Notes under the pieces: model-generated
What the model saw: the letters and a program-made list of their open reading frames with translations, nothing else
Databases searched by the model: none
Told to the model about the DNA's origin: nothing
Part shown: piece after piece, positions 35,084 to 63,940 of the stretch
Numbering within the stretch: the stretch's first letter is position 1
Layout of the letters: each line of letters opens with the position of its first letter
Translations under genes and position numbers: made by a program
Assembly (NCBI RefSeq): GCF_900142095.1
Contig: NZ_FQZP01000003.1
Location: 1 to 64,000, forward strand
Direction: 5' to 3'
Source: Thermoclostridium caenicola
GTDB lineage: Bacteria; Bacillota; Clostridia; DSM-8532
DNA: 64,000 nucleotides

Positions 35084-35354
35084 TACCGTGCTAGACGGGG
35101 AGGTAGCGGTGCCCTGTATCCGCAATCCGCTATAGCGGAGTCGAATTCCTGCCCCCGGCTTGCAAATGTAAGGTCAGTTATGTGTCGGAGTACGATGAAG
35201 ATCGGGTCTTGCGCAATCCGGAACCGTGAACCCCGTCAGGTCCGGGAGGAAGCAGCGGTAAGCGGAGCACCGGGTGTGCCGCGAGCGTGCCTGGTCCGAG
35301 TACGATGCACATGGTACGCTTGTATTTGCATTGCCAAAGGCAGGTGCACGGTTT
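35084..35354 (+). ncRNA. ffs: Signal recognition particle RNA, large type with Alu domain
   Basis: The 5' region GCTAGACGGGGAGGTAGCGG is the Alu-domain signature of Firmicute SRP RNA. ACCGTG (35085-35090) pairs with CACGGT (35347-35352) to close the molecule. The S-domain loop GTCCGGGAGGAAGCAGC, which binds Ffh, is at about 35240-35256. At about 270 nt it has the length of the Bacillus scRNA. It targets nascent membrane and secreted proteins with Ffh. It lies upstream of dnaX, as in many Firmicutes. Confidence 0.96.
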
Positions 35355-60189: not shown

Positions 60190-60633
60190 ATGAACGTGAC
60201 GTTCTTTGAAGAGATCATCAATAACAAAGCCCTCATATTGCCTGTGTTTTCATGGTTCCTGGCCCAGTTCTACAAATTTCTGCACTGCCTGGTGGTCAAC
60301 AAGAAGATCGATTTCATGAAGTTTGTCAGTTCAGGGGGCATGCCCAGTTCTCACAGTGCCATCTCGGTTTGCCTGGCTACCATGATGGGTCTGCAGTACG
60401 GATTTGGATCGGGCATTTTTGCTTTTGCCGCAGTTTTTTCCTTCATTGTCATGGCCGATGCCGCCGGTGTGAGGAGAGCGGCAGGCAAACAGGCCGCGCT
60501 GCTCAATAAACTGGCCAATGCCACCAAGCAGTTCCGGCCTGAAAAGGATTTGAAGGAACTCCTGGGCCATACGCCTGTGGAGGTATTTGCCGGAGCCGCC
60601 CTGGGGATACTGGTGGCATTAGTCTTTGCATAA
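60190..60633 (+). CDS. Divergent PAP2 (DUF212) membrane protein
   Basis: The 147-aa protein has three or four membrane helices and the DUF212 signature SSGGMPSSHSAISVCLA, a relative of the PAP2 phosphatase SRSxH motif. GHTPVEVFAGAALGI closes the protein. It may act on lipid or isoprenoid phosphates, which would fit the isoprenoid locus; the activity is unproven. The RBS is AGGAGAGA. The -35 of the OLE promoter overlaps the end of the gene. Confidence 0.88.
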   Translation: MNVTFFEEIINNKALILPVFSWFLAQFYKFLHCLVVNKKIDFMKFVSSGGMPSSHSAISVCLATMMGLQYGFGSGIFAFAAVFSFIVMADAAGVRRAAGKQAALLNKLANATKQFRPEKDLKELLGHTPVEVFAGAALGILVALVFA

Positions 60634-60654
60634 CGTCCCGGTTTGTTGTATAAT
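60626..60654 (+). promoter_or_regulatory. Sigma-A-like promoter for OLE RNA
   Basis: TTGCAT at 60626-60631, a 17-bp spacer and TATAAT at 60649-60654 give an expected start near 60661. It overlaps the last codons of the DUF212 gene. Confidence 0.75.
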
Positions 60655-60660
60655 ATTCTT

Positions 60661-61290
60661 CCAAAGCAAACACCAGGATGGCGCAGTATCCTAGTCAGTA
60701 CTGCCTGGTTTGAAGACGGGCCTAAAAATCCGTTAAAGGGCACATCGATGAAGTTCCTTGTGCCGGCTTGTTACGCCCAGTGATGGGTCGGTGCTGGGAG
60801 TTAAGGTTCAGGGGCAGCCCGCAATGGCATGCGGGTGGCGACCCCTTTACCGCGGAGACCCCCGGCTGTGGGAGACAGATTGCCCGCTTTACAGCGGTAG
60901 AGATCTTGACTACGGCGGGGGATAGAACCTGTTTTGCGGTATCGCTTACGATGCTGTGAACAGTGTAGCCTGCCTTGAGTGCGGTCTGGAGGATAGCAGA
61001 TCAGGTGTTGATGTACTGGCCGGTACATGAGCACTATTGCTGCTTGAAACCATCTGTGCAAAAGAGGCTAGAACCAGGTAAGACTCCCGGGGAAAACCCC
61101 TAGGCTGTTGATATCCAGGTATTCCGGGGATTGCAGTGTGTACTTAGTGGCAATCAGGCCTTGAGCTGGGCAACCGCTCAACTGCGGGAGTAAAGGGAAA
61201 CCGCCAGGACGGCGACGTCCTGGTACCCTCTGGGGAAAACCTGCCTGACCTAAGGCGCAAAATTTACTCGGAGTACTGCCATCCTGTGTT
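60661..61290 (+). ncRNA. OLE RNA (ornate, large, extremophilic RNA)
   Basis: A 630-nt non-coding stretch lies between ispA-DUF212 and dxs, the known OLE locus, and is the size of OLE RNA. The ends are joined by a long-range helix: AGGATGGC at 60675-60682 pairs with GCCATCCT at 61279-61286, extended inward by AGTA/TACT. Internal hairpins include CCCGCA/TGCGGG nested in AGGGG/CCCCT (about 60810-60847) and CCAGGAC/GTCCTGG (about 61204-61223). GGAAAACC blocks in purine-rich joints recur. Overlapping ORFs in the segment lack RBSs. OLE RNA forms a membrane RNP with OapA and helps tolerance to alcohols, cold and Mg stress in known hosts. Boundaries are by eye. Confidence 0.88.
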
Positions 61291-61310
61291 TTTATTGAAA
61301 AGTTGGCAGG

Positions 61311-61338
61311 AGAAGCGTTTCATCGTTTCTCTTTTCTG
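61311..61338 (+). terminator. Candidate intrinsic terminator between OLE RNA and oapA
   Basis: GAGAAGCG (61311-61318) pairs with CGTTTCTC (61325-61332, one G-T pair) around TTTCAT and is followed by TTTTCTGTT. It would let OLE RNA be made alone from its promoter, with read-through to oapA and dxs. Confidence 0.6.
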
Positions 61339-61400
61339 TTGTTGATTAACGCTGAAAGCAGGATGCTTGTTTGGGTAAAGCAGGAACTGAGCAGGAATAC

Positions 61401-62003
61401 ATGAAGCAAACGGATAAATACAAGAAGGCCTCCAGGCAGAACATACCCGTCAAACGGAAAACCGGCTTTGAAAAAAGGCATGTTCTATGGGGGATTTTTA
61501 TTACCGTCTTTTCTTTCGGGCTGTCACTGCTTGTCCTTTTTGCGTCGACCGGGCTGCTGGGAGAAGCCCAGCCGGCTTTCTCATTTGTTGTGGTGCTGGT
61601 GATCATCTTCACCGGCGTCGTGTTCGACGTGATAGGCATCGCGGTTACGGCAGCCGACGAAACGCCTTTCCATTCCATGGCCTCCAAAAAAATCAGGGGG
61701 GCCAGGCAGTCCCTGATCCTGATCCGCAACGCACCACGGGTATCCAGTTTCTGCAATGATGTGGTTGGGGACATATGCGGTGTTGTGAGCGGCGTTGCAG
61801 GGACATCCATCGTGTACAGGCTGTTTGCCGCAAGCGGTGATATTTCGCTGATAGAAACCATCACAGGCGCGCTGATAGCAGCGTTCACGGTCGGGGGGAA
61901 GGCTTTCGCGAAAAATATCGGCATGAATAACAGCAACTATATTGTTTACTGGGTCGGCAGAATTCTTTCCTGCTTTTATTTTGGAAAGCGAAAAAGGGGT
62001 TAG
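61401..62003 (+). CDS. oapA: OLE-associated membrane protein OapA
   Basis: Start ATG 61401 (AGGAA upstream) gives 200 aa; TTG 61371 in frame is possible. A basic N-terminal tail (about 1-27) is followed by four or five hydrophobic helices (about 28-52, 58-84, 127-145, 153-170 and 178-195). DVIGIAVTAADETPFHSMASKK lies in the loop after helix 2, and DVVGD (Asp120 and Asp124) gives the DxxxD motif reported for OapA. Position between OLE RNA and dxs is decisive. It binds OLE RNA at the membrane in studied species. Confidence 0.85.
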   Translation: MKQTDKYKKASRQNIPVKRKTGFEKRHVLWGIFITVFSFGLSLLVLFASTGLLGEAQPAFSFVVVLVIIFTGVVFDVIGIAVTAADETPFHSMASKKIRGARQSLILIRNAPRVSSFCNDVVGDICGVVSGVAGTSIVYRLFAASGDISLIETITGALIAAFTVGGKAFAKNIGMNNSNYIVYWVGRILSCFYFGKRKRG

Positions 62004-62005
62004 AG

Positions 62006-63940
62006 GTGTTCCGTTTGAACCGGAAAAATCACGCAAACAGCTTATTGAGCACCATTACCGGACCTGAAGATATAAAGAGGCTGAGCATACGGGAATTGAT
62101 CGCCTTAAGCGGTGAGATCAGGGAGTTCCTGATCAACACCGTTTCCAATACCGGTGGGCACATCGCCCCCAATCTGGGCGTTGTGGAGCTGACGCTGGCT
62201 CTTCATCGTGTCTATGATACGCCAAGGGACAAGATCATCTGGGATGTGGGGCATCAGACCTATGTCCACAAGATCCTGACGGGCAGGAAGGACAGGTTCC
62301 ACACCCTCAGACAGATGGACGGCCTTTCGGGGTTCCCCAAGACGGAGGAAAGCGAATACGACGCTTTCAATACCGGGCACAGCTCCACTTCCATATCGGC
62401 CGCCCTCGGCATGGCGCGGGCCCGTGATCTGAAGGGGGAGAACTATCATGTGGCGGCTGTCATCGGCGACGGGGCCCTTACGGGCGGCATGGCCTTTGAA
62501 GCCCTGAACGACGCGGGCAATGCCAGGACAAATCTGCTCATCGTTCTCAATGATAACGGCATGTCCATCGCGCCCAACGTGGGCGGCATCTCCCGGTACT
62601 TAAGCCGCCTGCGTATGAGGCCTTTCTATTATAAAACCAGGGAATCGATACAGTCCCTGCTGGACAGGAAGCTTCCCAAATCCGGAAAGCATGTGCGCAG
62701 GATCCTTCATCGCATCAAAAGCACCATGAAAAGCTTTCTCATGCCTTCCATGTTTTTCGAGGATCTGGGGTTCAGGTATTTTGGTCCCATAGACGGGCAT
62801 AATATCCGGGAAATGATCAGGGTTCTGGAGCATGCCAGGACCATGAAAGGACCGGTCCTGGTCCATGTGTGCACAGTAAAAGGGAAGGGCTACAGGTACG
62901 CTGAAGAAAAGCCCAATGTTTTTCATGGCATTGCGCCTTTCGAGATTGAAACGGGCGAACTTAAAAATAATGGCGGCGAGAGCTATTCGCAAGTCTTTGG
63001 CAGAAAGATCTGCGAGCTGGCCAAGGACGATCCGGACATTGTGGCCATAACTGCCGCCATGCCAGACGGTACCGGCCTCAACCCGTTCAGGGAGTCCTTT
63101 TCCAGGCGCTTTTACGATGTGGGTATTGCCGAACAGCATGCGGTGACCTTTGCCGCCGGGCTGGCCAAGGGAGGCATCAAGCCCGTTGTGGCCATCTACT
63201 CCACCTTCCTGCAGCGCGCGTATGATCAAATGCTCCATGATGTTGCCCTGCAGAATCTCCATGTGGTTTTTGCCATTGACCGGGCCGGTGTGGTGGGGGA
63301 TGATGGTGAGACCCACCAGGGCATATATGACATCGCCTATATCAAGACCATGCCCAACTTCACCCTCATGGCTCCCGCTTCTCCCAGGGAACTGGAGATG
63401 ATGCTGGCATATGCCGTTTCAGTTCACAAGGGTCCGATAGCCATCCGGTATCCCCGCGGGACCGGTTCCGAAATAGAAGCCCTGAAGCAGCCCATCACCT
63501 ATGGAAAGGGGTTGGTTGTCAGGGAGGGGAAGGATGTCACCCTCGTTGCCCCGGGGAACTTCCTGCGCATGGCGCTGAAAACCGCGGCTCTCCTGGAAGA
63601 GGAAGGTATCAGCTGCGAGGTGATCAATCCCCGGTTTATCAAGCCTCTGGATAAACAGCTGCTCAGGACATCCATAGGCAAAACCGGACGGGTTGTTGTG
63701 ATGGAGGATGGTATCGTAAGCGGCGGTTTCGGCAGCAGTGTCCTGGAATTCCTCAATGGGGAGAGGATCCCTGCCCGGTCGCTATTGATGGGATTTCCCG
63801 ATGAACCCATACCCCATGGGGATCGGAACCTGCTCTACAGGAAGTACGGACTGGATCCCCAGGCCATGAGGGATCGGATACGGGATTTCCTGAAGGCTTC
63901 AGGAAAAAAGGAGGACGGGCATGCAAAAGGAACGCCTTGA
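62006..63940 (+). CDS. dxs: 1-deoxy-D-xylulose-5-phosphate synthase
   Basis: The 644-aa transketolase-like enzyme makes DXP from pyruvate and glyceraldehyde phosphate, the first step of the MEP isoprenoid pathway. GGHIAPNLGVVELT, WDVGHQTYVHKIL, the TPP motif GDGALTGGMAFEALN, and DVGIAEQHAVTFAAGLA with the catalytic Glu are present. The GTG at 62006 lies just after the oapA stop and behind AAGGGG. It overlaps the next gene by 20 bp. Confidence 0.97.
   Translation: MFRLNRKNHANSLLSTITGPEDIKRLSIRELIALSGEIREFLINTVSNTGGHIAPNLGVVELTLALHRVYDTPRDKIIWDVGHQTYVHKILTGRKDRFHTLRQMDGLSGFPKTEESEYDAFNTGHSSTSISAALGMARARDLKGENYHVAAVIGDGALTGGMAFEALNDAGNARTNLLIVLNDNGMSIAPNVGGISRYLSRLRMRPFYYKTRESIQSLLDRKLPKSGKHVRRILHRIKSTMKSFLMPSMFFEDLGFRYFGPIDGHNIREMIRVLEHARTMKGPVLVHVCTVKGKGYRYAEEKPNVFHGIAPFEIETGELKNNGGESYSQVFGRKICELAKDDPDIVAITAAMPDGTGLNPFRESFSRRFYDVGIAEQHAVTFAAGLAKGGIKPVVAIYSTFLQRAYDQMLHDVALQNLHVVFAIDRAGVVGDDGETHQGIYDIAYIKTMPNFTLMAPASPRELEMMLAYAVSVHKGPIAIRYPRGTGSEIEALKQPITYGKGLVVREGKDVTLVAPGNFLRMALKTAALLEEEGISCEVINPRFIKPLDKQLLRTSIGKTGRVVVMEDGIVSGGFGSSVLEFLNGERIPARSLLMGFPDEPIPHGDRNLLYRKYGLDPQAMRDRIRDFLKASGKKEDGHAKGTP

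Follow-up and report, generated by a model that had tools for sequence, protein, structure and literature searches.

The OLE RNA gene of Thermoclostridium caenicola as a probable transcription unit of its own, with read-through into oapA and dxs

Introduction

The closest described counterpart of the locus studied here is the ole-oapA pair of Halalkalibacterium halodurans (RF01071). In this species the OLE RNA is abundant and acts in a ribonucleoprotein with many phenotypes (PMC12054373), and it undergoes both 3' processing and RNase P cleavage (PMC11332333). A passage of PMC9723947, citing Ko and Altman 2007, describes ole as part of a large operon, with its own promoter and a presumably processed transcript. 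The level of OLE relative to OapA, and the tie to dxs and hence to isoprenoid synthesis, bear directly on OLE function.

Two broader classes of systems also invite comparison. Intrinsic (Rho-independent) terminators that allow read-through, and so set an abundant upstream product apart from a downstream gene, share with the present loci a GC-containing hairpin and a U-run just past the first product; the hairpin described below for the Bacillales differs from them in lying within the reading frame of the next gene and in its near-invariant sequence. Operons shaped by selective RNA processing and stabilisation, such as the Clostridium case of PMC8219983, are alike in that 3' stem-loops set the operon stoichiometry, whereas the separate promoter and the U-runs found here would point to initiation and termination, and not only to decay.

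We analysed 64,000 nucleotides of Thermoclostridium caenicola (NZ_FQZP01000003.1, positions 1 to 64,000; hereafter the window), in which, as in H. halodurans, OLE lies directly upstream of oapA. The two also appear to share an own promoter for ole (for H. halodurans, according to the same passage of PMC9723947), the H. halodurans RNA being in addition processed at its 3' end (PMC11332333). They differ downstream: the H. halodurans hairpin lies inside oapA, about 83 nt past the published nucleotide 637, while that of the window's genus is intergenic, and the H. halodurans RNA carries a TACATA in its 3' tail.

Results and Discussion

Organisation of the locus

The gene order in the window is nusB-xseA-xseB-ispA-DUF212-ole-oapA-dxs, the whole string being on the + strand, with the following features around ole.

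60190..60633, + strand: DUF212 (divergent PAP2) gene (Pfam PF02681, 161 bits)
60662..61298, + strand: OLE RNA (Rfam RF01071, 518.9 bits, E 2.6e-149, full model)
60674..60682, + strand: 5' strand of the closing helix (P1), CAGGATGGC, assigned from sequence
61278..61286, + strand: 3' strand of the closing helix (P1), GCCATCCTG, assigned from sequence
61360..61363, + strand: Shine-Dalgarno sequence AGGA of oapA, assigned from sequence; GAARGCAGGA is kept across the genus
61371..62003, + strand: oapA, TTG start; a homologous open reading frame lies directly 3' of OLE in 124/132 loci
62006..63940, + strand: dxs, GTG start (Pfam DXP_synthase_N, 424 bits)

The RF01071 match covers model positions 1-616, with 518.9 bits against a curated threshold of 50. 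The oapA product has a weak CNNM-like match (PF01595), under the cut-off. The gap between the oapA stop and the dxs start is 2 nt, and no promoter-like site was found between 61290 and 62100 of the window. The read-through into oapA and dxs that an earlier note on this DNA had proposed is plausible on both counts, and its logic is favoured by the comparison with the Bacillales described below; oapA and dxs are probably expressed by read-through only.

A probable promoter conserved across OLE loci

Immediately upstream of OLE we find the following elements.

60626..60631, + strand: -35 element TTGCAT, 3/6 matches to TTGACA (TTG---), 17 bp from the -10 element
60649..60654, + strand: -10 element TATAAT, 6/6 matches to consensus, identical in 14/14 family members
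60661..60665, + strand: predicted transcription start, best guess A60663, from the -10 spacing

Seven bases separate the end of TATAAT from the Rfam start of OLE, exactly as the earlier note had counted. Its description of a near-consensus sigma-A promoter with a 17-bp spacer holds for the -10 element and is too generous for the -35; an alternative -35, TTTGCA with an 18-bp spacer, matches at 4/6. The window has no TGn extension of its -10, and most other OLE loci do. The last codons and stop of DUF212 (TTT GCA TAA) overlap the -35 element. Taken as a lone consensus match, the promoter is unremarkable, with 3 such sites in 7 kb of the window against 4.3 +/- 1.8 in shuffles, and thus no excess.

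It is conservation across the family that places the promoter far above chance. We gathered 119 OLE loci with an exact 19-base OLE pattern, a choice that under-represents divergent OLE RNAs, and added those of the window's order, in which 30/33 genomes have OLE, for a total of 136 non-redundant loci. A -10-like hexamer is present in 135/136, usually 11-21 nt before the RNA, with a median distance from -10 to helix of 16 nt. Of the 136 loci, 97-100% have a match of at least 5/6 no more than 60 nt upstream, as against about 25% of random same-strand windows and about 62-64% when these AT-rich stretches are shuffled. Perfect TATAAT is found in 95% of the loci of the window's order and 68% of the others (random windows 1-2%, shuffles 11-14%), and a TGn-extended -10 in 89% of 115 loci from a wide pattern scan, versus 3%; these percentages, like our Fisher tests, treat the loci without a phylogeny model.

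Within the window's family, 14 aligned loci show 96% identity in TTGCAT and 100% in TATAAT, with the 17-bp spacing in 14/14; identity drops to 68% over the spacer and to 62-63% over the flanks. In one locus (L125) the end of DUF212 is duplicated; the coding copy reads TTGCTT, and the copy past the stop reads TTGCAT at 17 bp, a pattern suggestive of selection on the -35 that is independent of the DUF212 protein. One genome of this family has no OLE; there DUF212 adjoins dxs, with no TATAAT at the junction. The proposal of an own promoter for OLE is strongly supported by this family-wide pattern (135/136 loci; fixed spacing in 14/14), and the OLE RNA of the window is very probably made from it. 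What is new is the conservation across the family, the own promoter itself being already known for one species, H. halodurans.

We also located, through a published primer (PMC12054373), a genome with the H. halodurans primer sites (L165/L166). There the published OLE nucleotide 1 falls on the final T of TATAAT within CATGGTATAAT. As this position lies within the -10, the true start would be several bases further on, if the promoter is used. The H. halodurans OLE numbering would then begin inside the -10, and constructs that start at nucleotide 1 may carry several untranscribed bases.

The hairpin behind OLE in the window

Downstream of the RNA the window carries a hairpin.

61310..61331, + strand: GAGAAGCG-TTTCAT-CGTTTCTC, then the tail TTTTCTGTTGTTG; candidate partial terminator or 3'-end determinant

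Counting two outer bases from 61308, it begins 21 nt past the 3' strand of P1 (61278-61286), the distance that had been noted before. Its folding energy is -10.7 kcal/mol (z = -1.92 with flanks), its d'Aubenton-Carafa score is d = +12, and its T tail is moderate. In other species of the genus the same hairpin scores from +0.6 down to about -7. In 4/5 genus members a pattern search places it at one position per genome, only behind ole, and the fifth carries GGGAAACG..CGTTTCTC in the corresponding position; a dispersed repeat is ruled out by this single position. The outer stem bases vary between species and still pair in several. The window-type hairpin was found only in the genus, and most other genera of the family have no terminator-like site at its position. 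Its conservation places it moderately above chance.

The hairpin with a T tail that the earlier note had placed after the RNA is borne out as conserved across the genus, less so as a terminator, since the window alone has it with a good U tail. For this reason both a partial terminator and a processing or stability hairpin that defines the 3' end are possible from the sequence.

A hairpin inside oapA of the Bacillales

Taking d >= 0 as the definition of a terminator-like site, we scanned 123 loci over the OLE-oapA gap and the opening 170 nt of oapA. The gap holds such a site in 16/123 loci (one of which, L062, is the in-oapA hairpin ahead of a mis-set start), and the opening stretch of oapA does so in 57 loci. 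The density of these sites is 2.8/kb in the oapA stretch and 1.9/kb in the gap, versus 0.14/kb in control coding DNA.

In the Bacillales the site is a hairpin at about codons 16-24 of oapA, almost invariant in sequence, GCCGUUA-U-CAC-NNNN-GUG-U-UAGCGGC-UAUUUUUUC (codons AVITFVLAAIFS), with about -14.6 kcal/mol, the U-run UAUUUUUU, and d mostly from +1 to +29. This terminator-like hairpin with its U-run, within oapA of OLE-bearing Bacillales, is the new part of our findings. Among 54 loci picked by taxonomy, not by motif, third positions in the stem are near-fixed (GCC 53/54, GTT 53/54, ATC 51/54, GTG 53/54, GCG 53/54), while in the loop they are free (ACA 18, ACG 16, ACT 14, ACC 6), and the U-run survives Ile/Leu/Val codon changes. 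None of 2000 codon permutations reached the observed frozen run. Each of 12 genomes carries the motif exactly once, and Rfam has no match for it. The oapA genes of the window's order show no in-frame constraint (permutation p 0.67), and the window does not carry the in-oapA hairpin, which bears on the window's locus by family analogy.

The stem third positions hardly covary, even those that pair with each other. This near-absence of covariation hints at an added, sequence-specific constraint on the hairpin. Pairing of the hairpin with OLE RNA was rejected, being no better than in shuffles (mean z +0.89); one OLE segment picked post hoc gave p = 0.016 and is not counted. At the same oapA codons, hairpins of different sequence followed by T-rich DNA are seen in a Eubacteriales MAG (L014) and in Alicyclobacillus suci (L053).

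Loss of the hairpin and loss of ole and oapA

Among 200 genomes of one order, 117 have both OLE and the hairpin motif, 14 the motif only and 10 OLE only. In 6/10 OLE-only loci a variant hairpin is kept, with changes that fall on a mismatch or leave wobble pairs. The other 4/10 (L182, L185, L186, L188) are without the hairpin and make, together with L003, five losses. An intergenic terminator is present in 5/5 of these loci as opposed to 2/58 of those with the hairpin; as three of the five are alike, the independent events may number about three, for which a conservative p is 3e-4.

The 14 motif-only genomes yielded no match to OLE or to OapA. All 14 keep the hairpin and its U-run as non-coding DNA between ispA and dxs, and 14/14 keep the TGn-extended -10 (9% in random 160-nt windows). 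One of them (L180) lost the genes recently and still shows remnants; in the other 13 nothing else recognisable is left. Since the hairpin persists in genomes without OapA, the protein does not explain it, and since the promoter persists in genomes without OLE, it is not there for OLE alone. A terminator-like element that lies within the partner's reading frame, hardly changes in sequence and outlasts OLE offers a concrete handle that can be tested cheaply. In six of the OLE-less genomes (L167, L169, L170, L171, L172, L175) promoter and hairpin are separated by a common leader, ACTACTATG..GTAGTGCATAGG, about 60 nt long, which may form a small stem or a pseudoknot; in L167, L169 and L170 it has no match in Rfam.

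These data bear on the reading of the downstream hairpins as sites for a sequence-specific factor, at the RNA or the DNA level, that tunes oapA-dxs expression without being terminators. The almost invariant Bacillales stem, unchanged also where it is non-coding, and its single occurrence per genome fit such a factor. It would not account for the U-run kept in 14/14 non-coding cases, for the U-run third bases maintained through Ile/Leu/Val changes, or for the unrelated terminator at the loci that lost the hairpin, and we regard it as rather unlikely.

A model for the ole-oapA-dxs region

We think it fairly likely that ole is its own promoter-to-terminator unit within the gene string, with oapA and dxs fed by read-through. 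The conservation of promoter and hairpin, the gene order, and the swap of one type of terminator for the other are observed in the genomes. The start site, termination, the fraction of read-through and a possible excess of RNA over protein, as suggested in the earlier note, are inferred. The sigma-A promoter at 60626-60654 would start OLE at about 60663, and polymerase would meet the hairpin just past the closing helix, where a part of it would stop or the 3' end would later be set. In the window the partial stop would fall at about 61332-61345; in the Bacillales it would fall within oapA, the 3' end then being trimmed back. The remaining polymerase would read on into oapA and dxs, both without a visible promoter of their own, and transcripts of the upstream genes would also run through, adding to both. 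The promoter would be constant over the family and the 3' device variable: the window's genus and some Clostridia would have an intergenic hairpin, most Bacillales an intrinsic-terminator-like one within the first 30 codons of oapA. Polymerase can outrun ribosomes in Bacillus subtilis (PMC13323073), and an in-frame hairpin might thus act even if oapA is translated.

Against ole as a separate unit one may hold the weak -35, which doubles as the DUF212 stop, and the U tail, which is imperfect in the window and worse in other species. A plain terminator should, moreover, tolerate covariation in its stem, and the oapA hairpin hardly covaries. Since OLE is 3'-processed in H. halodurans (PMC11332333), the mature 3' end need not be the terminator.

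For the Bacillales we tentatively advance a more specific possibility, in which dxs and its operon are under the control of a conserved promoter-attenuator module composed of the ole promoter and the invariant hairpin. The hairpin would be a regulated terminator, recognised by a sequence-specific factor. The module would enclose OLE and oapA, the terminator in the oapA codons would set the OLE:OapA ratio, and the module would outlive OLE.

Alternatively, OLE could be cut from a long nusB-to-dxs transcript, with nucleases making both ends and the hairpin only stabilising the RNA or guiding its trimming. The genes are tightly spaced and co-directional, and no terminator-like site was found upstream of ole on the + strand within this string. 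The 3' processing and RNase P cleavage reported for H. halodurans (PMC11332333) would also suit a long precursor, as would its nucleotide 1 at the last base of the -10, which calls for a start further upstream if that nucleotide was mapped and not chosen. A long precursor leaves unexplained why nearly all loci have a -10, mostly extended, at a near-fixed distance, and why the -10 is kept after ole is lost; we therefore consider it improbable.

The promoter might instead serve mainly oapA-dxs, with OLE as a long, structured, attenuator-like leader. Promoter and hairpin do stay ahead of dxs once ole and oapA are gone, yet an RNA that in H. halodurans is abundant and active in a ribonucleoprotein with many phenotypes (PMC12054373) is hard to reduce to a leader, and we give this explanation little credence. 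That TATAAT and the hairpin are chance features of AT-rich gaps is scarcely tenable, for a lone consensus match is indeed expected by chance, but conservation and the controls oppose this and already contradict it for the promoter.

Other features near the 3' end of OLE and elsewhere in the window

Within 90 nt past the closing helix, TACATA is found in 69/102 loci outside the window's order (68% versus 4-5% expected), mostly 0-12 nt after the helix (3' flanks of L003-L120). Loci with an intergenic terminator have it less often (p 0.009). Its role as the -10 of an oapA promoter was rejected, as its last base is A.

By eye, CATCCTG (61280-61286) in the 3' strand of the closing helix is complementary to CAGGATG (61359-61365) at the oapA Shine-Dalgarno sequence in the window and in some, not all, of its relatives; such pairing could mask the Shine-Dalgarno sequence if the 5' strand of the helix were absent. 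As a general mechanism this masking was rejected, the pairing being missing in L122 and L130. Elsewhere in the window, positions 35086-35351 match the bacterial large signal recognition particle RNA with 197 bits.
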